Made by a program: the position numbers and the translations under genes | Shown here: positions 1,407 to 10,512 of the stretch, one piece after another | How the letters are laid out: each line of letters opens with the position of its first letter | Numbering within the stretch: position 1 is the stretch's first letter | Notes under the pieces: model-generated | Told to the model about the DNA's origin: nothing | Database searches by the model: none | The model's input: only the letters and a program-made list of their open reading frames with translations | Source of the DNA: Candidatus Omnitrophota bacterium | GTDB lineage: Bacteria > Omnitrophota > Gorgyraeia > Gygaellales > JAHJCI01 | Assembly (NCBI GenBank): GCA_018813085.1 | Contig: JAHJCI010000104.1 | Location: forward strand, 1 to 10,605 | DNA: 10,605 nt | Direction of reading: 5' to 3'

Positions 1407-2405
1407 ATGCTTGTGCTCGGAATTGAAACATCCTGCGATGAGACAGCCGTTTCCGTAGTCGGAAACGGCGAGAAGATTTATTCCAGCGTAGTTTCTTCCA
1501 GTATAAATTTTCATAAACGCTATAAAGGCATAGTTCCTGAAATCGCTTCGCGTTTACATATTGAAACTATAAGCGCGGTTTTATCAGATGCTTTAGCGCA
1601 GGCAGGCCTGGGATTAAAGCGTATAGGGTTAATTGCGGTAACCTCAAAGCCGGGGCTGCCCGGGTCTTTGCTCGTTGGTTTATGTTTTGCGCGTGCTTTA
1701 AGTTTTGCAAAAGGCATACCCCTTTTGCCTGTAGACCATCTCAAGGCGCATCTTTACGCTGCTTTTTTTAGCAGGCCTCGACCGCGTTTTCCTTTTATCG
1801 GCCTGGTAGTTTCCGGCGGCCATACCAGTTTATTTTACGTTAAGAAGTTTTCTCAAATTAAACTCTTAGGCTCAACCCAGGATGATGCCTGCGGAGAAGC
1901 TTTTGATAAAGTATCCAGTATGCTGGGATTGGGTTATCCTGGCGGGCCGGCAATTGAGGAGATGGCCAGAAACGGCGAGGCCAAAGCCTTTTCTTTTAAT
2001 TGCAGCAATACACAAGAGCCTTTAAATTTCAGTTTCAGCGGCATCAAAACAGCCCTGCTCTACAAAACGCGGGAAGAAAAGATAGGGGCAAAGAAAAACA
2101 GAGGCGCTAAGATTAGGCAGAAGATTAAAGTGAGCAACCTCTGTGCTTCATTCCAGGAAGCAGTTATAAATGCTTTAGTAAAGAAGTCCCTTTTAGCTTG
2201 CAGATTAAAAAAAACGCCACGCCTGGTTATCGGAGGAGGAGTAGCAGCTAATAATCGGCTAAGGGAAAGGTTTTTTTCTGAGGCAAGGTTAAACGGCATA
2301 GATATATATTTTTCCAGGAAAGAATTTTGTACTGATAATGCGGCAATGGTTGCCGGGATGGGGTACAATTTATATAAAAATTCCCACAAGAACAAGTCCC
2401 TTTAA
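1407..2405 (+). CDS. tsaD: tRNA N6-adenosine threonylcarbamoyltransferase TsaD
   Basis: TsaD (YgjD/Kae1/Qri7 family) transfers the threonylcarbamoyl group from threonylcarbamoyl-AMP to A37 of ANN-decoding tRNAs, working with TsaB and TsaE in the cytoplasm. The N-terminus LGIETSCDETAVSVV (4-18) is the first ATP-binding motif of this ASKHA-fold family. His111 and His115 in VDHLKAHLYA and Asp310 in CTDNAAMVAG are the expected metal ligands. Other family blocks are VVSGGHTS (134-141), GLGYPGGPAIE (174-184), FSFSGIKTAL (208-217) and VIGGGVAANNRLRE (274-287). The length of 332 aa is normal. The Lys/Arg-rich stretch at 221-241 is an ordinary variable loop. The start lies 3 nt after the protease stop with no strong Shine-Dalgarno, which suggests translational coupling. 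Confidence 0.97.
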   Translation: MLVLGIETSCDETAVSVVGNGEKIYSSVVSSSINFHKRYKGIVPEIASRLHIETISAVLSDALAQAGLGLKRIGLIAVTSKPGLPGSLLVGLCFARALSFAKGIPLLPVDHLKAHLYAAFFSRPRPRFPFIGLVVSGGHTSLFYVKKFSQIKLLGSTQDDACGEAFDKVSSMLGLGYPGGPAIEEMARNGEAKAFSFNCSNTQEPLNFSFSGIKTALLYKTREEKIGAKKNRGAKIRQKIKVSNLCASFQEAVINALVKKSLLACRLKKTPRLVIGGGVAANNRLRERFFSEARLNGIDIYFSRKEFCTDNAAMVAGMGYNLYKNSHKNKSL

Positions 2406-2441
2406 AGACATCCTATAATGAGAAAGAAAGCGAGGATGTCT
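2406..2441 (+). promoter_or_regulatory. Perfect 8-bp hairpin between tsaD and the GxxExxY gene
   Basis: AGACATCC (2406-2413) is exactly complementary to GGATGTCT (2434-2441) across a 20-nt loop. The 3' arm overlaps the only Shine-Dalgarno-like stretch (GAGG, 2432-2435) before the start at 2449, so folding could limit translation. The loop holds TATAAT (2414-2419), but I see no matching -35. No T-tract follows, so it is not an ordinary intrinsic terminator. Confidence 0.5.
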
Positions 2442-2478
2442 GATTACAATGATTGAAAAGAAGATTACAGAGATTAAA
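2440..2478 (+). repeat. Left inverted-repeat arm, overlapping the GxxExxY start codon
   Basis: The arm begins CTGATTAC (2440-2447) and ends AGATTACAGAGATTAAA (2462-2478). It contains four GATT units at 2442, 2451, 2463 and 2472. It covers the ATG at 2449 and the first ten codons. The partner arm is at 2837-2873. Confidence 0.6.
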
Positions 2479-2841
2479 AGCAGAGATCCGCTTACTGAGA
2501 AAATAATTGCTTGTGCCTATAAGGTTCATTCTGAATTAGGGCCTGGATTTAACGAGGGCATATACCACAATGCTTTAAAGATGGCCCTAGAAGACCAAGG
2601 ATTAAAATATCAGGCCGAGAAAGGCTTTAATGTTTTATTCCATGGCAAAGACGTCGGTAAGATGAGGTTAGATTTAATCATAGAAGATAAGATTATAGTT
2701 GAAATTAAAGCCCTAACAGGCAATATACCTACTGTATTTGAGTTACAGGTTTTATCTTATTTAAAGGCATCAGGATATAAAATCGGATTATTGATAAACT
2801 TCGCTAACAAAAGTTGTCAGGTAAGGCGATTAATGGTTTAA
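2449..2841 (+). CDS. GxxExxY protein, predicted PD-(D/E)XK nuclease fold
   Basis: A 130-aa protein of the GxxExxY family (NCBIfam TIGR04256; Pfam PDDEXK_3). The signature is exact: Gly33, Glu36 and Tyr39 within GPGFNEGIYHNAL. A nuclease-like acidic centre follows: Asp75 in RLDLII, then Glu85 and Lys87 in VEIKA, with a helix carrying Gln100 and Tyr104 (ELQVLSYL). This is the order expected for a PD-(D/E)XK active site, but activity and target have not been established for the family as far as I know. Residues 1-14 precede the usual family start and are partly encoded by the left repeat arm. The gene differs from its neighbours in having repeats and palindromes at both ends, which suggests an accessory insertion between tsaD and mgtC. 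The Shine-Dalgarno is weak and distant (GAGG, 2432-2435). Confidence 0.9.
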   Translation: MIEKKITEIKSRDPLTEKIIACAYKVHSELGPGFNEGIYHNALKMALEDQGLKYQAEKGFNVLFHGKDVGKMRLDLIIEDKIIVEIKALTGNIPTVFELQVLSYLKASGYKIGLLINFANKSCQVRRLMV

Positions 2842-2845
2842 TCGC
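2826..2845 (+). repeat. Perfect 8-bp palindrome over the GxxExxY stop codon
   Basis: GCGATTAA (2826-2833) and TTAATCGC (2838-2845) are exact inverted copies separated by TGGT. The TAA stop (2839-2841) lies in the 3' arm. No T-tract follows, so a simple Rho-independent terminator is unlikely; it may act as an RNA-stabilising hairpin or a protein site. Confidence 0.6.
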
Positions 2846-2873
2846 TGTAATCTGACTTAATCTCAGTAATCAG
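2837..2873 (+). repeat. Right inverted-repeat arm made of four phased TAATC units
   Basis: This is the inverted partner of 2440-2478. On the + strand TAATC starts at 2839, 2848, 2858 and 2867, so the spacing is 9, 10 and 9 bp, close to one helical turn. The array overlaps the predicted -35 of the mgtC promoter, so a protein bound here could affect mgtC transcription. Confidence 0.6.
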
Positions 2874-2920: not shown

Positions 2921-3364
2921 ATGGTTGGGCCGATGATTGGGCCGTTAGGTATTATCGGGCGTCTGGTTTTAGCGCTTCTTACCGGAGGAGTAATAGGATT
3001 CGAACGCGAGGTTAAGCGCCGCAGCGCAGGCCTACGTACGCATATTTTAGTTTCTTTAGGCTCGTGTCTTATAATGTTGACATCTTTATATGTTTTTGAT
3101 ATATATAAAGATAGCGGAATAAATATAGATCCTTCCAGGATCGCAGCCGGCGTAATTACCGGTATTGGTTTCCTGGGCGCGGGAACAATAATACGTTCCG
3201 GAGAGGCAGTAAAGGGATTAACCTCAGCCGCTACGTTATGGCTGGTTGCCGGAATAGGGTTGGGGATAGGTTGCGGGTTTTATTTAGCCAGTATTGTCAC
3301 AACGATTCTGGCGATAGCTGTGCTTTTTTTCCTTGGCCGCCTGGAAAAATCATTAGTCAAATAA
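2921..3364 (+). CDS. MgtC/SapB family membrane protein
   Basis: An inner-membrane protein of 147 aa with about four hydrophobic segments, near residues 10-26, 43-60, 73-92 and 105-138. The family signatures are clear: GGVIGFERE (22-30) leading into RRSAGLRTH (33-41), then AAGVITGIGFLGAGTI (75-90) and VKGLTSAATLW (97-107). It covers only the hydrophobic N-terminal domain; the cytosolic ACT-like C-terminal domain of Salmonella MgtC is absent, as in many short bacterial homologs. MgtC is linked to Mg2+ limitation and restraint of the F1Fo ATP synthase in Salmonella, but short homologs are of uncertain function, so transport should not be assumed. It has a strong Shine-Dalgarno (AGGAGGT, 2910-2916), a predicted promoter and palindromes directly upstream, so it probably has its own control. 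Confidence 0.9.
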   Translation: MVGPMIGPLGIIGRLVLALLTGGVIGFEREVKRRSAGLRTHILVSLGSCLIMLTSLYVFDIYKDSGINIDPSRIAAGVITGIGFLGAGTIIRSGEAVKGLTSAATLWLVAGIGLGIGCGFYLASIVTTILAIAVLFFLGRLEKSLVK

Positions 3365-4280: not shown

Positions 4281-4964
4281 ATGCGCAAGTGCCTTAGCAG
4301 TAAATCCATTAGAACAGGGGAGTTTGCCGAAGTTGATATAGACAGGTTTAGGCGGCGGGGTTTTCCTGAAGTAATTTATTGCCCCGGAAAAACAAAGGAA
4401 CAAATCAGGAAGATAGCAGCTGTCTTATTAAAAGAAAAACAGCCCCTGTTATTAACCCGCCTTGATAAAAAGGTATTCTCCTATCTGAAGAAGTTTTATT
4501 CCGGCTTAAGGTATAATCCGAGAGGAAGAGTAGCTTATTACAATCCGCAAACGCGCAGTAGTTCTTCCAGGGGAAAGATTTGCCTGGTTTGTGCAGGGAC
4601 TTCGGATTTACCCGTAGCCGAGGAAGCAGCAGCTACCCTGGAAGCCATGGGTGAGCGTATGGTTAAGTTTTACGATGTCGGTGTTGCCGGGGTTCACAGG
4701 GTCCTCGGTAAAGTAAATTTATTAAGGCAATGCAGCGTGGTTATTGTTATTGCCGGGATGGAGGGAGCATTGGCAAGCATCGTCAGCGGCTTGGTTTCCT
4801 GCCCCGTGGTTGCGGTTCCCACAAGCGTCGGTTACGGCGCTAATTTTTCTGGCCTTGCGCCTTTATTAACCATACTTAACAGCTGTTCGCCAGGAATAGC
4901 TGTAGTAAATATTGATAACGGATTCGGCGCAGCTTATTTTGCCAGCCTGATTAACAGGGGATAG
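4281..4964 (+). CDS. larB: Nickel pincer cofactor biosynthesis protein LarB
   Basis: LarB (pyridinium-3,5-biscarboxylic acid mononucleotide synthase) carboxylates the nicotinate ring of nicotinic acid adenine dinucleotide and cleaves off AMP, the first step towards the nickel-pincer nucleotide of lactate racemase-type enzymes. The family blocks are unmistakable: RRRGFPEVIYCPGKTKEQI (24-42), GTSDLPVAEEAA (106-117), YDVGVAGVHR (131-140), VIAGMEGALAS (156-166), VPTSVGYGANFSGLA (179-193), LNSCSPGIAVVNIDNGFGAA (199-218). The C-terminal half has the PurE (AIR carboxylase)-like fold. At 227 aa it is slightly short at the N-terminus. No larA, larC or larE is in the window, so the cofactor's user is not shown. 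The ATG directly follows the previous stop; AGGG at 4272-4275 may be its Shine-Dalgarno. Confidence 0.95.
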   Translation: MRKCLSSKSIRTGEFAEVDIDRFRRRGFPEVIYCPGKTKEQIRKIAAVLLKEKQPLLLTRLDKKVFSYLKKFYSGLRYNPRGRVAYYNPQTRSSSSRGKICLVCAGTSDLPVAEEAAATLEAMGERMVKFYDVGVAGVHRVLGKVNLLRQCSVVIVIAGMEGALASIVSGLVSCPVVAVPTSVGYGANFSGLAPLLTILNSCSPGIAVVNIDNGFGAAYFASLINRG

Positions 4965-4980
4965 CTTTTAGCGTATAGAA

Positions 4981-5430
4981 ATGGGCTATAACAGCAGCAG
5001 TAGTTTAAATGAGGCGGTAAGATTTCACGGGCACCTGGGGCCCTATTTGATATTAGGTATACTTGCAGGCAATACGGCTGTCAGGAAACTTAAATCCGGA
5101 AAATATTTTAATTTATATGTGAAGGTCTGGGGTGCTTATAAAAAACCCAAGTCTTGCCTTATCGACGGATTACAGCTGTCTACGGGCGCAACTTACGGCA
5201 AAGGCAATATCGAGAAATTAAAAGGCAGGAGTATCTGGATAGAGGTAACTAATCTTTCCAACTCTGGAAGGATTAGATTGAGTTTAAAAGAAAGCCTGGT
5301 TGCTGAATTAAAAGCAGCAAACACGCACAGGGCTGCGGAAGTTTTAGCAAAAAAACTGTATAAAATAAAAAATTGTGCTAAAATATTTAAACTGTCGCCA
5401 GTAACAAAAATTAATAATAATAATCCGTAA
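4981..5430 (+). CDS. FmdE-family protein (short form)
   Basis: Residues about 8-105 match the FmdE family (Pfam PF02663), named for a gene beside molybdenum formylmethanofuran dehydrogenase in methanogens and of unsettled function. Landmarks are FHGHLGPYLILG (15-26) with His16 and His18, a Cys59-containing CLIDGLQLSTGA segment (59-70), and TYGKGNI (71-77). Many relatives have Cys in the GCT of this last block; here it is Ala70. The C-terminal zinc-ribbon of longer members is absent. The tail from about 125 is AT-rich and low in complexity (ending INNNNP) and is unlikely to be conserved. A metal- or cofactor-binding role is an inference from the His/Cys pattern. It sits 16 nt after larB and 26 nt before acsC, so it is probably co-transcribed with both. 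Confidence 0.85.
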   Translation: MGYNSSSSLNEAVRFHGHLGPYLILGILAGNTAVRKLKSGKYFNLYVKVWGAYKKPKSCLIDGLQLSTGATYGKGNIEKLKGRSIWIEVTNLSNSGRIRLSLKESLVAELKAANTHRAAEVLAKKLYKIKNCAKIFKLSPVTKINNNNP

Positions 5431-5451
5431 CCCTTGACCCATAACCCGTAA
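5425..5451 (+). repeat. Short degenerate repeat between fmdE-like gene and acsC
   Basis: CCGTAACCC (5425-5433), CCATAACCC (5439-5447) and CCGTAA (5446-5451) form an imperfect tandem motif that starts in the last codons of the FmdE-like gene and fills the gap to acsC. It replaces the Shine-Dalgarno expected before acsC. I do not recognise it. Confidence 0.45.
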
Positions 5452-5456
5452 AAACT

Positions 5457-6794
5457 ATGGCTCTATCAGGATTAGACATATATAAACTTCTACCTAAGAC
5501 TAATTGCAGGGAGTGCGGATTTGTTACCTGCCTTGCTTTTGCCATGCAGCTGGTAAAGAGGCAGGCGCTACCCGAGAAGTGCCCTTATTTATCCGAACAG
5601 GCAAAGAGCGCATTGGATGCGGCAAGCCGTCCACCGATTAAGCTGGTTGTAATAGGCGAGGGTGAGGATAAACTGGAGATTGGCAATGAAACCGTTATGT
5701 TCCGCCATGAGGAGAAGTTCCATCATCCTACGGGACTCGGATTTATTATTGAAGATGGCTTAAGCAGTGAGGAAATTCTTAAAACGGTTAATAAAATAAA
5801 TGCTTTAAGTTTTGAGCGTATCGGATGCCTGCTTCGGCCGAACCTTATTGCAATAAAACAGAATGGTGATGCTTCTGTTTTCGCGGCAGCGGTTAAGTTG
5901 GTCAAGGAGCATACGAATCTGGGCCTGGTTTTAATAAGCAAAGACGCATCCGCGCAAAGAAGCGCCTTGGAGATAGCTGCTTGCGGGAAGCCGTTAATCT
6001 ACGGTTTAGATAAAAATAATTTAGAGGCTTTTACTAAGCTTGCCGTAGAATTTAAAGTTCCGCTTGTAGTTTCCCTGCAGGATTTATCCGAACTCTCAGC
6101 TGTGGCCGGGAAGTTAATAGCTCAAGGCGTAGAAGACCTGATTCTTGATACGGGTAATAAGAATATTGCCGAGAAGATATGGGATTTAACCCAGATCAGG
6201 CGCCGAGGCCTTTACAGGTCAGAGCGCAGTCTTGGATTCCCGACAATAGTGACGATAGAAGATAGCGCTGACCGTTTTGATCCGATACTGGAAGCCGCGA
6301 CTTATATAGCTAAATATGCAGGGGTAGTTTTAATTAAGGCGAATGAGCCTTGGCAGGCATTATCGCTTTTAACCCTAAGGCAGAATATTTATACAGATCC
6401 GCAGAGGCCCTTACAGGTAGAGTCTAAGCTTTATCCGATAGGAAACACAAGCGATAAATCGCCCGTATTGATAACCACTAATTTTTCCTTAAGTTATTAT
6501 ACTGTCCTGGGCGAGGTAGAAGCGAGCAAGATACCTGCTTATATTATGACTATTGACACCGAAGGCATGTCTGTTTTAACTGCCTGGGCAGCAGAGAAGT
6601 TTACGCCAGAAAGCATAAGCGCAGCCATTGATAAATACGGGTTAAAAGAACAGGTCTGCCATAAACAGCTGGTTATTCCGGGTTATGTAGCAGTAATGAG
6701 CGGAAAATTAGAAGATGCTTGCGGATGGCAGGTTGCTGTCGGGCCGAAGGAGGCATCGGGTATACCGTCTTTTTTAAAAAACCTGCAGCTATAA
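5457..6794 (+). CDS. acsC: Corrinoid iron-sulfur protein large (gamma) subunit AcsC
   Basis: AcsC, with AcsD, forms the corrinoid/iron-sulfur protein that accepts a methyl group from methyl-tetrahydrofolate (via AcsE) on cob(I)amide and delivers it to acetyl-CoA synthase. The N-terminal [4Fe-4S] motif is visible: Cys17, Cys20, Cys25 and Cys42 in CREC-GF-x-TC and PEKCPY. This cluster helps reduce the cobalt. A TIM-barrel domain follows to about residue 320. The C-terminal cobalamin-binding domain (about 325-445) includes TNFSLSYYTVLGEVE and DTEGMSVLTAWAAEKF. The length of 445 aa is normal. The start MALSGLDIYKLLPKTNC is the family's usual N-terminus, so it is firm even though no Shine-Dalgarno is visible. 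acsV follows after 16 nt. Confidence 0.96.
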   Translation: MALSGLDIYKLLPKTNCRECGFVTCLAFAMQLVKRQALPEKCPYLSEQAKSALDAASRPPIKLVVIGEGEDKLEIGNETVMFRHEEKFHHPTGLGFIIEDGLSSEEILKTVNKINALSFERIGCLLRPNLIAIKQNGDASVFAAAVKLVKEHTNLGLVLISKDASAQRSALEIAACGKPLIYGLDKNNLEAFTKLAVEFKVPLVVSLQDLSELSAVAGKLIAQGVEDLILDTGNKNIAEKIWDLTQIRRRGLYRSERSLGFPTIVTIEDSADRFDPILEAATYIAKYAGVVLIKANEPWQALSLLTLRQNIYTDPQRPLQVESKLYPIGNTSDKSPVLITTNFSLSYYTVLGEVEASKIPAYIMTIDTEGMSVLTAWAAEKFTPESISAAIDKYGLKEQVCHKQLVIPGYVAVMSGKLEDACGWQVAVGPKEASGIPSFLKNLQL

Positions 6795-6810
6795 GCCGGG
6801 AAATATTTAG

Positions 6811-8739
6811 ATGAAAAAACTCAAGGTAACATTCTATCCGGAAAACAAAAGCATAGAGATAGAAAAGGGCAAGACCATACTTGCCGCAGCTATATCTGCC
6901 CATATTTATATCAATTCCAGTTGCGGAGGCGACGGAGTGTGCGGCAGGTGCAAGATAATCCTTAATAAGGGAGAGGTTATAAGCCAGCCTTCAGGAAGGC
7001 TGAGTCCTGAGCAAAGGAAGCACGGTTATTATCTGGCTTGCCAGACGTTAGTAGAGAGCGATTTAGAAGTTTTGATTCCTCCGGAGTCAAGGCTTGAACT
7101 GGATAAGCTTACTCAGGAGGAAGTAGATTTAAGATTAAAGGGTTTATATTCTAAAGCCGAAGAGGTCGGCCCGCCACAATCCCTGATAAAGGAAGGTATT
7201 TTCCGGCATTCTCCCCTGGCTACGAAATTATACCTGGAATTAACTCCTCCTGACCATACTGACCGGATAAGTGATTTGGAAAGAGTCCTCAGGCATATTC
7301 GCCAAAACTACGATGTCAAGGTAATACAAATCGGCTTGGTCAATATTCGCCGGCTGGGCAGCTTGTTGCGCGATTCGGATTGGAAGGTTACGGTTACCCT
7401 GGGCAAAAGAAACGGCACTACAGAAATAGTACTTGTGGAGCCCGGGGACACATCAGAGAAAAATTACGGGCTCTGTTTTGATATAGGAACAACTACTATA
7501 TCCGCACAATTAATCGACCTGAAAACGAAAAAGATTTTAGGCACAAAGGCCACCTACAACAGGCAGGCCAGCTTTGGAAGCGATATTATTACGCGCATTA
7601 TTTATGCCCGCGAGGAAGACGGTCTTGAGAAGCTGCATCATGCGGTGATTGATACAATGAACGAAATGATAAAGGAGCTGGTTCGGGAAAATTGTGTTGA
7701 CCTGAATGATGTTAATTGTATATTGTGTGCGGGAAATACTACCATGGTACATCTTTTATTGCGCGTTGACCCGACCTACATTAGAAGAGAACCCTACGTA
7801 TCTACGGCGAATTTTGTCCCTACGATCCGTGCTAACGAAGCCGGCATAAAGATAAATCCCCGCGGGCTTCTCTCCTGTGTTCCCGGGGTTTCCAGTTATG
7901 TCGGAGGTGATATCTCTGCCGGTATTCTTGCCTGTGGGCTGGATAAAGAGGAAGAGGTATGTTTATTAATCGATATCGGAACTAACGGAGAGATAGTTGT
8001 AGGCAATAAAGAATTTTTGATTAGCGCTGCCGCATCAGCAGGCCCTGCTTTCGAGGGAAGCGGCTTGAGCTGCGGGACAAGGGCAGCCAGAGGCGCGATC
8101 CAAAAGGTTAAAATCAGCCCAAAGGACTTTGAAGTAAGTTTCAATGTAATCAAGGACGTAAAGCCCATAGGAATTTGCGGTTCCGGGTATATTGATATTG
8201 TTTCTCAGATGCTGAAGGCAGGTCTGATTGATAAGGAAGGTAAATTCAAGCAGGTTAAATCATCCCGCCTTCGTAAAAGCGATATTGGCAATGAGTTTAT
8301 TCTTGTTTTCTCCGGGGATTCAGGGACAGGTTCTGATATCGTTGTCAGCGAAGCAGATATTGAGAATATCAAGCGCGCTAAAGCAGCTATATTTGCCGCC
8401 TCAGCAATACTCATAGAACAGCTAAGCCTGAAATTCGGCGATATCGATAAGGTATTTATTGCAGGCGGATTCGGAACGTATCTCGATATGGAAAATGCAG
8501 TTAGTATCGGATTACTCCCGGATATCGAGCGGAAGAAATTTATTTTTGTAGGAAATAGCTCCCTTGCCGGGGCAAGGGAAGTTCTCCTTTCTTATGAGGC
8601 AATGAAAAGCATTACAGAGATCGCTAAAAAAGTAACCTATCTTGAATTATCCATCGAGTCCAGGTATATGGACGAATATATGGCGGCGATGTTTTTTCCG
8701 CATACGGATAAATCAAGGTTCCCCAATATGAAAGAATAG
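6811..8739 (+). CDS. acsV: Reductive activator of the corrinoid iron-sulfur protein (RACo)
   Basis: RACo rescues the corrinoid protein when Co(I) has been oxidised to inactive Co(II), coupling ATP hydrolysis to an uphill one-electron transfer. The N-terminal plant-type [2Fe-2S] ferredoxin domain (1-95) has Cys38, Cys44, Cys47 and Cys77 (CX5CX2CX29C). A linker and middle domain run to about 215. The C-terminal ASKHA-type ATPase (DUF4445) covers about 220-642: phosphate loop FDIGTTTISAQLIDL (223-237), second loop LLIDIGTNGEIVVG (385-398), ICGSGYIDIV (455-464) and FIAGGFGTYLD (549-559). The length of 642 aa matches characterised RACo. Its place between acsC and acsD makes the corrinoid protein the likely client, rather than a methyltransferase corrinoid protein served by RamA-like enzymes. 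acsD starts 2 nt after the stop. Confidence 0.95.
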   Translation: MKKLKVTFYPENKSIEIEKGKTILAAAISAHIYINSSCGGDGVCGRCKIILNKGEVISQPSGRLSPEQRKHGYYLACQTLVESDLEVLIPPESRLELDKLTQEEVDLRLKGLYSKAEEVGPPQSLIKEGIFRHSPLATKLYLELTPPDHTDRISDLERVLRHIRQNYDVKVIQIGLVNIRRLGSLLRDSDWKVTVTLGKRNGTTEIVLVEPGDTSEKNYGLCFDIGTTTISAQLIDLKTKKILGTKATYNRQASFGSDIITRIIYAREEDGLEKLHHAVIDTMNEMIKELVRENCVDLNDVNCILCAGNTTMVHLLLRVDPTYIRREPYVSTANFVPTIRANEAGIKINPRGLLSCVPGVSSYVGGDISAGILACGLDKEEEVCLLIDIGTNGEIVVGNKEFLISAAASAGPAFEGSGLSCGTRAARGAIQKVKISPKDFEVSFNVIKDVKPIGICGSGYIDIVSQMLKAGLIDKEGKFKQVKSSRLRKSDIGNEFILVFSGDSGTGSDIVVSEADIENIKRAKAAIFAASAILIEQLSLKFGDIDKVFIAGGFGTYLDMENAVSIGLLPDIERKKFIFVGNSSLAGAREVLLSYEAMKSITEIAKKVTYLELSIESRYMDEYMAAMFFPHTDKSRFPNMKE

Positions 8740-8741
8740 TC

Positions 8742-9689
8742 ATGGCAGAATTAGTCTATCAGAAATGGTCGGGCAAGATTAACGAAACAATAATCGGAGC
8801 AGGGCCTTTATCAATAAAGATTGGCGCAGAAGAGGGCTTACCTTTTCTGTTTAAAGAAGGCAAGATCCCCAACCAGCCACGGATTGCTTTTGAGGTCTGG
8901 GACATAGCGCCTGCGGATTGGCCTGATGAGTTAGCAGGCCAATATAAGGATGTTTTTAATAATCCTTTAGAGTGGGCAGGCAAGTGCGTGCAGGAATACC
9001 AGGCTCAGGCTATCTGCTTAAGGCTTCAGGGCGCGCATCCTGATTTCGGCAACAAGTCGGCAGAAGAGGAAGCAAGATTAATAAAGGACTTACTTAAGGC
9101 ACTCGATGTACCGTTAATTATCCTGGGTTGCGGAGACGATAATAAAGACAACGAAGTCCTGCCGGTATGTTCTCAGGCAGCCAGCGGTAAGAGATGTTTG
9201 ATAGGAAGCGCTGTTGGGGACAATTATCGTACTTTGGCAGTTGCGGTTTTAGCAGACGGACACAGTATTATTGCCGAATCACCGATAGATATTAACATTG
9301 CCAAACAGCTGAATATTCTTATTTCCGATATGGGAATTCCCCTGGAAAGGATAGTAATAAATCCTACGATCGGGGCCCTGGGTTACGGCTTGGAATATGC
9401 TTATTCGATTATGGAGCGCGCAAGACTGGCTGCTTTAGCAGGAGATAAGATGATGGCGATGCCGTTTATATGTTTCGTCGGCCAGGAGACATGGAGGGCA
9501 AAAGAAGCAAAGGCAGGAGAAAAGGAGTTCCCGCAGTGGGGCCCGGAGGCTGAGCGCGGAGTGGCTTGGGAATCAGTTACGGCTGTTGCTTTACTTCAGG
9601 CAGGCGCAGACCTCTTGGTTATGCGGCATCCGAAAGCGATAGACTGCGTAAGGAAATATATTGAAGTTAGTTTCAAGGATAATATTTAA
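8742..9689 (+). CDS. acsD: Corrinoid iron-sulfur protein small (delta) subunit AcsD
   Basis: AcsD is the TIM-barrel partner of AcsC; the B12 cofactor sits at the interface of the two subunits. Family blocks are IAFEVWDIAPADWP (49-62), NPLEWAGKCV (74-83), ICLRLQGAHPD (91-101), ESPIDINIAKQLNILI (178-193), INPTIGALGYGLEYAYSIME (205-224) and VGQETWRAKEA (246-256). The length of 315 aa is as expected. It begins 2 nt after acsV without a clear Shine-Dalgarno, which indicates coupled translation and fits the need for equal amounts of subunits. No cysteine motif is expected or seen. acsE follows after 34 nt. Confidence 0.96.
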   Translation: MAELVYQKWSGKINETIIGAGPLSIKIGAEEGLPFLFKEGKIPNQPRIAFEVWDIAPADWPDELAGQYKDVFNNPLEWAGKCVQEYQAQAICLRLQGAHPDFGNKSAEEEARLIKDLLKALDVPLIILGCGDDNKDNEVLPVCSQAASGKRCLIGSAVGDNYRTLAVAVLADGHSIIAESPIDINIAKQLNILISDMGIPLERIVINPTIGALGYGLEYAYSIMERARLAALAGDKMMAMPFICFVGQETWRAKEAKAGEKEFPQWGPEAERGVAWESVTAVALLQAGADLLVMRHPKAIDCVRKYIEVSFKDNI

Positions 9690-9709
9690 CCATTCAGGCT
9701 CAAACAGAC

Positions 9710-9726
9710 AGGAGTAATAAGAGATG
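9710..9726 (+). promoter_or_regulatory. Strong ribosome binding site of acsE
   Basis: AGGAG at 9710-9714 lies 9 nt before ATG 9724 in a 34-nt gap, so acsE can be translated independently. acsC, acsV and acsD lack a comparable site. Confidence 0.6.
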
Positions 9727-10512
9727 CTTGTTATCGGAGAGTTAATCAACGGAATGTATAACCAGGCAGGGGGGGCAATTCAGAAAAAAGATAAATCCGT
9801 AATCCAGCGCCTGGTGCGTGAGCAGGTTGAAGCCGGTTGCGATGTGCTGGATTTAAACTGCGGCCCGCTAAGCCATAATCCTGCCGAGGATATGGCCTGG
9901 CTGGTGGAGAGCGTTCAGGAAGTAACCGATAAGATGCTATGCTTAGACAGCACAAAGCCTAATGCCATTGAAGAGGGCTTGAAAATAATTAGAAATAAGG
10001 CAATCATTAATTCCACCTCAGCCGATAAGGAGAAGCTTGATGTTTTTGTTCCGCTGGCATTGAAATATAAAACCGGATTAATCGGTTTAACCCTGGATAA
10101 AAAAGGCGTGCCGCAGGATAAAGACAGGCGTATGGAATTGGCTGCTATGATTATCGCTGATTGTCAGGAGAAGGGTTTTCCCTTGGAAGATCTTTATATC
10201 GACCTTGTTATCCTGCCGGTAAATGTCGCCCAGGCGCAGCTTGAAGATACCTTAAATGCATTAGCGGAATTTAAAATACATTCTTCTCCGGCTCCGAAAA
10301 CGGTAGTCGGCTTGAGTAACGTATCGCAAGGGATGAAAGAAAGAAGCCTGGTTAACCGCACTTTTTTAATCATGGCAATAGTCAACGGACTGGATGCCGC
10401 AATATTGGATCCCCTTGATAAGGAATTAATGGATTCCTTAATTACCGCAGAGTTAATTTTAAACAAGCAGATTTATTGTGATTCTTATCTACAGGCGTAT
10501 AAGAAGAAATAA
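9724..10512 (+). CDS. acsE: Methyltetrahydrofolate:corrinoid/iron-sulfur protein methyltransferase AcsE
   Basis: AcsE (MeTr) moves the N5-methyl group of methyl-tetrahydrofolate to the Co(I) centre of AcsCD, linking the folate branch to acetyl-CoA synthesis. It is a single pterin-binding TIM barrel of 262 aa, the same length as the Moorella enzyme as I recall it. The pterin-site residues fall at the same positions: Asp75 (CLDSTK), Asn96 (INSTSA), Asp160 (LYIDLVILP) and the catalytic Asn199 (GLSNVSQ). The N-terminus MLVIGELINGM and the C-terminal block CDSYL are typical. A good Shine-Dalgarno (AGGAG, 9710-9714) lies 9 nt before the ATG, in contrast to the coupled genes upstream. Nothing suggests a fusion or loss. 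A methionine-synthase-type paralog is less likely because the sequence aligns end to end with MeTr. Confidence 0.96.
   Translation: MLVIGELINGMYNQAGGAIQKKDKSVIQRLVREQVEAGCDVLDLNCGPLSHNPAEDMAWLVESVQEVTDKMLCLDSTKPNAIEEGLKIIRNKAIINSTSADKEKLDVFVPLALKYKTGLIGLTLDKKGVPQDKDRRMELAAMIIADCQEKGFPLEDLYIDLVILPVNVAQAQLEDTLNALAEFKIHSSPAPKTVVGLSNVSQGMKERSLVNRTFLIMAIVNGLDAAILDPLDKELMDSLITAELILNKQIYCDSYLQAYKKK

Follow-up and report, generated by a model that had tools for sequence, protein, structure and literature searches.

We analysed a window of 10,605 nucleotides from a Candidatus Omnitrophota genome in which one short gene lies between tsaD (positions 1407–2405, forward strand; TIGR03723, 394.6 bits) and mgtC (2921–3364, forward strand; PF02308, 139.7 bits). 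The gene (2449–2841, forward strand) encodes a PD-(D/E)XK nuclease-like protein of 130 amino acids. As an earlier note on this DNA had supposed, it is a clear member of the GxxExxY family (TIGR04256, 126.2 bits against a cut-off of 35; PF13366, 121.1 bits against a cut-off of 22) and its PD-(D/E)XK residues are intact. The eponymous motif is G33-E36-Y39; across an alignment of 39 sequences E36, Y39, D75, E85, K87 and Q100 are invariant and G33 is kept in at least 90%. The predicted structure has a pLDDT of 89.4, with the first eight residues, which are encoded by the left repeat arm, below 50 and disordered in the model. Foldseek returned SSO0001, a Cas4 protein, as the best PDB match (E 7e-5), followed at E > 0.001 by lambda exonuclease, Holliday junction resolvases and, as a weak match (E 0.013), the homing endonuclease I-Bth0305I. 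Given TM-scores of about 0.5, and an rmsd of about 11 for the top matches, these hits give a fold class and not a function, and the modelled domain is of the Cas4/RecB-like nuclease fold class. Transcription of the gene is probably driven by the promoter of the upstream operon. Further along the window (4281–10512) lie larB, an FmdE-like gene and several Wood–Ljungdahl-type genes in a row, among them those for CdhD-family proteins, a RACo-like activator and a pterin-binding protein; the named protein matches near the top of the list come from Candidatus Omnitrophota. That protein search also gave matches of 82–89% identity.

The gene is enclosed by two arms built from a single repeat unit, GATTACNNNGATTRA, with exact copies at 2442 and 2463 on the forward strand and at 2838 and 2857 on the reverse strand. 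Each arm holds two copies in tandem, and the right pair is inverted relative to the left. Left unit 1 (GATTACAATGATTGA, 2442–2456, forward strand) contains the start codon, and left unit 2 (GATTACAGAGATTAA, 2463–2477, forward strand) follows 21 nt past it; right unit 2 (GATTACAGCGATTAA, 2838–2852, reverse strand) overlaps the stop codon and is spaced 19 nt from right unit 1 (GATTACTGAGATTAA, 2857–2871, reverse strand). The inner step of the repeats is 9 nt. A hairpin with the stem AGACATCCT/AGGATGTCT (2406–2441), recognized from sequence and fold, abuts left unit 1. On the other side, an inverted-repeat search and the fold gave a hairpin region (2872–2909) with two alternative stems that both fall inside 2870–2909: stem A, TCAGGTATAA/TTATACCTGA (also given as AGGTATAA/TTATACCT, 2872–2897), and the longer stem B, GGTATAATTT/AAATTATACC (2873–2909), which the predicted fold chose. 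The whole element spans 2406–2909, with a core of 2442–2871, and encodes no Y1 transposase.

The earlier note had described inverted arms whose limits coincide with those of the gene. Both descriptions hold: 2440–2447 matches 2866–2873 at 8 of 8 positions and 2462–2478 matches 2837–2853 at 16 of 17, the start codon is part of the first left unit, and the right arm begins at the stop codon. To this we add that one unit, present four times, makes up the arms and that outer hairpins abut them. Shuffle tests rule out a chance origin of the arms. Their alignment score of 33 was reached by none of 2000 dinucleotide shuffles (maximum, 27), and the 11 unit matches in the window at up to two mismatches compare with a shuffle mean of 1.84 (0 of 200 shuffles reached 11).

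Relatives carry the same gene junction free of the cassette. We matched tsaD in 36 relatives and fetched the locus for 29; in 22 of these, tsaD and mgtC adjoin with no GxxExxY gene between them (the other seven are G006, G037, G038, G021, G023, G036 and G025). The gap in the 22 is −17 to 156 nt, which leaves no space for a GxxExxY gene, and it is 135 nt in G002, a member of the same family as the window genome and its closest relative with a readable junction. The junctions of G007 and G026 (L249 and L250) hold a gene-less palindrome with a 7-nt period, as judged by eye; the two belong to one genus and perhaps record one event. A different short gene-less palindrome lies at the junction of G004 (L235).

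The arms recur elsewhere without the gene, as gene-less palindromes in the window's own genome and in its order. At up to one mismatch, the unit has 41 matches in its own genome against 9 for the reversed pattern, and one GxxExxY gene was found in this genome (75% complete). Five of the 12 unit places fetched from it (L022, L023, L024, L025 and L028) are gene-less palindromes of three to four units; the open frames listed for the first four of these show that the palindromes fall outside the main genes. The exact string GATTACRCAGATT is present in 22 of 58 genomes, the window's own included, with up to 78 copies in one genome and 0–1 per strand for the reversed control. Copies in G030, G052, G001 and G094 are often arranged as unit–unit–centre–unit–unit with the second pair inverted; others in these genomes have one to three recognized units.

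A survey of 285 genomes of the phylum found GxxExxY genes in 43 and the exact unit in 86. At least three exact units were present in 24 of the 43 genomes with GxxExxY and in 19 of the 242 without (odds ratio 14.8, Fisher p 3e-12, a statistic that ignores kinship). The phylum contributed 34 GxxExxY loci: seven show the two-plus-two arrangement (in the window, G030, G042, G186, G223, G125 and G130), another six carry units on just one side and the remaining 21 lack them; a truncated gene in G004 also lies within two-plus-two units. G030 carries its cassette at another site, with tsaD on contig 2 and the cassette on contig 17. All seven two-plus-two genomes hold at least four exact units, and so do those of 9 of the 21 loci that have no GATTAC-type units, so the link between arms and genome is not exclusive. 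One unit-rich genome, G052 (78 units), gave no GxxExxY match; by eye it retains a 3′ gene remnant with a right arm. Many unit-rich genomes such as this one have no intact GxxExxY gene, which makes mobilization in trans possible. The outer hairpins recur as well: perfect stems of at least 7 bp abut 31 of 73 distinct element ends, whereas mononucleotide shuffles predict 0.76 and more distant DNA gave 1 of 73. The sequence of the stems at GATTAC elements (L100–L139 and the window) varies between loci. Double hairpins lacking a core also occur.

The layout extends beyond the phylum. We read the flanks of 121 GxxExxY loci: 34 from the phylum (window included), 7 from plasmids of named bacteria and 80 from named genomes, judged by their titles to span about 17 phylum-level groups. 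The last are the best 80 of at least 578 matches listed in a scan built on one branch of the family. Many loci carry inverted arrays of differing sequence (CACGAAGNN, CACAGAGNN, CACGAATNN, ACGGATNNN and others). After removal of three duplicates (L147, L148 and L151, of L049, L047 and L045, respectively) and six loci near a contig end, matching inverted flanks were found at 83 of 112 loci (the named part drawn from the best 80 of at least 578 matches) and at 4 of 101 distant flanks, the threshold being the 99th percentile of distant-flank arm scores. The loci that passed comprise 27 of 31 from the phylum, 4 of 7 from plasmids and 52 of 74 from named genomes (again from the best 80 of at least 578); 29 of the 112, including three plasmid loci, missed it. 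Comparison of GxxExxY loci with their flanks, a check that had been suggested, showed that the layout with matching inverted arms recurs in many phyla. The string CACGAAGNNCACGAAG was present in 19 of 24 chosen genomes with up to 112 copies (reversed control, 0–1 per strand). Viral contigs supplied five loci; by eye, among four of them, L327 has inverted arrays and L329 a stretch in direct repeat.

Although sequences differ between loci, the two arms of one locus resemble each other: the mean score is about 32.4–32.6 for a locus's own arms and 19.0 for swapped arms, indicating that the arm sequences of a locus change together. The own flank was the single best partner at 29 of 112 loci, and 16 loci scored above the 99th percentile of swapped arms; this test is blunted because many loci share CACGAAG/CACAGAG arrays, and distant flanks were then used as the control. 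A strong period was detected in 31 of 239 GxxExxY flanks (9 nt in 24 of the 31 and 8 nt in four) and in 3 of 226 distant flanks. On the right side of the loci the mean lag-9 excess was 0.039, compared with 0.023 in distant flanks. Such wide array diversity is hard to square with one conserved DNA-binding protein.

Genes for four-helix-bundle proteins (TIGR02436) form a parallel family. Matches were found in 31 of 58 genomes, the window's own genome having four, and 29 of 36 loci passed the arm threshold (L275 was dropped, and 7 of 39 plasmid records were taken). Strong arrays lie in 42 of 72 of their flanks (lag 7 in 28, lag 8 in eight and lag 14 in six) and in 0 of 72 distant ones. With 9 nt predominating at GxxExxY genes and 7, 8 or 14 nt at four-helix-bundle genes, the strong period follows the carried gene. 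The two families also meet in their settings: the four-helix-bundle locus L284 and the GxxExxY locus L051 both lie between tRNA-Val and tRNA-Asp genes, the four-helix-bundle loci L261 and L272 both lie between tRNA-Pro and tRNA-Arg genes, and ARAGORN placed a tRNA gene next to the cassette at seven of seven loci (L261, L272, L284, L051, L270, L053 and L054). Two cyanobacterial plasmids (L333 and L334) carry four-helix-bundle genes inside CRISPR gene runs, between cas10 and a Cmr3-family gene and between cas6 and cas4.

Gene-bearing and gene-less forms stand side by side in one Schlesneria genome (G307), where 20 fetched regions yielded three full cassettes and five gene-less copies. The full cassettes share 90–92% DNA identity, and their dN/dS of 0.05–0.25 indicates, at the level of sequence, that the GxxExxY gene is under purifying selection within this multi-copy set. 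In the gene-less copies, ATGGAATT of the gene start is joined to the last codons before the stop, within the same arms (one arm is damaged in two of the five). The break falls at ATGGAATT, which recurs near the 3′ end of the gene; one full copy has it there unchanged, and the other two have it with a single mismatch. Their sequences thus mark the gene-less copies as internal deletions of the gene cassette. Because they have patches of flanking repeats in common, the five are not proven to be independent insertions. In a degraded cassette (L347), the arms lie 1.5 kb apart and enclose what by eye looks like an insertion-sequence fragment.

Presence and absence at single sites could be compared in G068 and its congeners G065 and G071. 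At one site, G068 has an element of 121 nt that is cleanly absent from the same place in both congeners; the insert has CCTCC on both sides, and G065 and G071 have a single CCTCC. For these three species, gain in G068 would be the simpler reading. The insert (L322:4141–4262) alters the last codons of the preceding gene, whose product ends in ...DYTD*. At a second site, the two hairpins are separated by a core in G068 and by no more than AATT or GATT in G065 and G071; no target duplication is seen there, and both G065 and G068 carry the full hairpin–core–hairpin unit at other places. A clean target duplication, the 5-nt CCTCC, was seen at one of the two compared sites only. Two more shared places are marked by decay or by an additional insert.

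Scattered cassettes of gene plus arrays, together with gene-less copies, have the look of mobile DNA of a kind that has been little studied, and not of an ordinary gene. The earlier note had suggested a minimal mobile cassette that has no transposase, and this is borne out by the cassette-free sites in relatives, the arm copies elsewhere in the genome, the same layout in other genomes, the deletion derivatives and the G068 element absent from two congeners; diverged arms with no copies elsewhere, or shuffles that do equally well, are the opposite of what was found. We favour, with a probability of roughly 60%, the reading that 2406–2909 represents a single copy of a mobile cassette with one gene, and we infer that its own nuclease moves it. 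On DNA that is single-stranded or supercoiled, the inverted arrays would fold back into a hairpin or a cruciform; the GxxExxY protein would recognize its own arrays by their period and structure, not by a fixed sequence, and would cut at the folded-back arrays; the cut element would then be copied into a new intergenic place, and gene-less copies would use the same enzyme in trans.

An account at the level of RNA is the strongest competitor of this reading, though we hold it to be somewhat improbable as a replacement. The arms would act as in the intervening sequences of 23S rRNA: pairing in the transcript would hide the start codon, a possibility that the earlier note had raised, and RNase III would remove the insert, so that insertion into an operon is tolerated and the DNA itself is moved by an older route. 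The predicted fold agrees with the pairing: the transcript beat 100 of 100 shuffles (z −5.13) with its arms paired. Orientation also fits. By a crude open-frame test, in which both neighbours were callable at 81 GxxExxY and 30 four-helix-bundle loci, the gene lies on the strand of same-strand neighbours at 58 of 63 and 26 of 28 loci, respectively, which suggests that co-transcribed insertions survive best. A precedent comes from Coxiella, whose 23S rRNA intervening sequence is portrayed, in the passages of PMC4990558 drawn on here, as a selfish element, cleaved by RNase III, in which the terminal stem has 28 bp and heptamers in tandem precede the S23p ORF; its authors consider that S23p is probably not made, which points to a role of the RNA rather than the protein in that relative. 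Pairing in RNA, however, accounts for tolerance and not for spread, leaves the gene-less copies unexplained and by itself needs no tandem units of fixed period, and the gene-less copies and deletion derivatives demand a move at the level of DNA. The RNA reading may nevertheless describe an added function of the arms, as far as the predicted fold goes.

Less probable still, and in our judgement unlikely, is that the cassette owes its movement to another enzyme acting in trans, for instance a Y1 transposase of the IS200 type, or to host recombination, with the nuclease as a passenger or in a separate role. The 19 of 242 genomes that hold at least three exact units with no GxxExxY match speak for this, as do the outer hairpins, which abut the units and resemble the subterminal hairpins of Y1-transposed elements. 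Y1_Tnp is present in 232 of the 285 phylum genomes, but as a partner it is too common to discriminate, and the comparison is uninformative. Movement by a foreign enzyme also sits poorly with an array period that tracks the carried gene and with purifying selection on GxxExxY in the multi-copy set. That this is an accessory gene of the ordinary kind, whose repeats regulate it locally and resemble other repeats by coincidence, is highly improbable: the single place in an incomplete genome would suit it, but it is refuted by unit copies in its own and other genomes with reversed-pattern controls near zero, by empty junctions in relatives and by a layout that recurs in many phyla, and arms that occur without the gene reject a purely regulatory reading.

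Generalizing from the proposed cassette, we tentatively propose, at somewhat less than even odds, a class of very small mobile elements in many phyla, in which a single gene is recognized together with end arrays by period and foldback (9 nt for the GxxExxY nuclease and 7–8 nt for the four-helix-bundle protein). If this is true, the class would take in, as members or as remnants, the classical intervening sequences of 23S rRNA, orphan heptamer repeats and many of the palindromes found between genes, and the GxxExxY nuclease would represent a mobility enzyme of a new type. Co-varying arms and a gene-specific period make recognition by period and foldback a testable prediction.

GxxExxY genes are widespread, and the annotations met here give no function past the family name. 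In the open-access literature we found no link between these genes and repeat arms or mobility (subscription papers may describe one), and in the portions of open-access papers that name GxxExxY it serves as an annotation label only. GATTAC-type unit strings had no match in that literature, and CACGAAG/CACAGAG strings matched unrelated animal papers only. The one-gene plan with inverted arms is already familiar from the intervening sequences of 23S rRNA; a form that lies outside rRNA, bears a nuclease and has mostly nonamer arms, with gene-less copies and a gene-specific period, was not found described in open-access sources. The present data place GxxExxY in a concrete setting, a cassette of one gene with repeat arms of its own and derivatives that lack the gene, and connect it with a long-standing puzzle, that of the 23S rRNA intervening sequences and the heptamer repeats between genes.

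Several known systems share parts of this design. Like MITEs, the gene-less forms are short, multi-copy palindromes with terminal inverted repeats dispersed between genes, and those of Schlesneria derive from a gene-bearing parent by internal deletion; unlike MITEs, the parent cassette has no transposase gene, and target duplication was not consistent over two sites. IS200/IS605 and REP/RAYT elements have structured ends with hairpins, as the cassette does, but it contains no Y1 transposase and has long inverted arrays around its gene. A homing endonuclease cassette is a candidate likeness: the layout fits, and the weak fold match to I-Bth0305I would agree with it.

The heptamer repeats of Xanthomonas and Nostoc (a Xanthomonas genome has 70 to 75 inverted, convergent pairs; PMC4692102) and the TAACTGA repeats of Beggiatoaceae (PMC4679880) are, in the parts of these papers used here, likewise short, tandem and intergenic, but have a period of 7. 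The main texts of both papers contain neither 'S23' nor 'four helix bundle', and that of PMC4679880 does not contain GxxExxY. Closest of the designs considered in its plan is that of the 23S rRNA intervening sequences, as the consulted passages describe them: one short ORF inside terminal inverted repeats, a long predicted stem, and short tandem repeats in the arm right before the start codon. The window element differs in lying between tsaD and mgtC, outside rRNA, in carrying a PD-(D/E)XK nuclease-like ORF and no S23p four-helix bundle, and in belonging to a family whose commonest strong period is 9 nt, not 7. We regard the window cassette as a cousin of the 23S rRNA intervening sequences.
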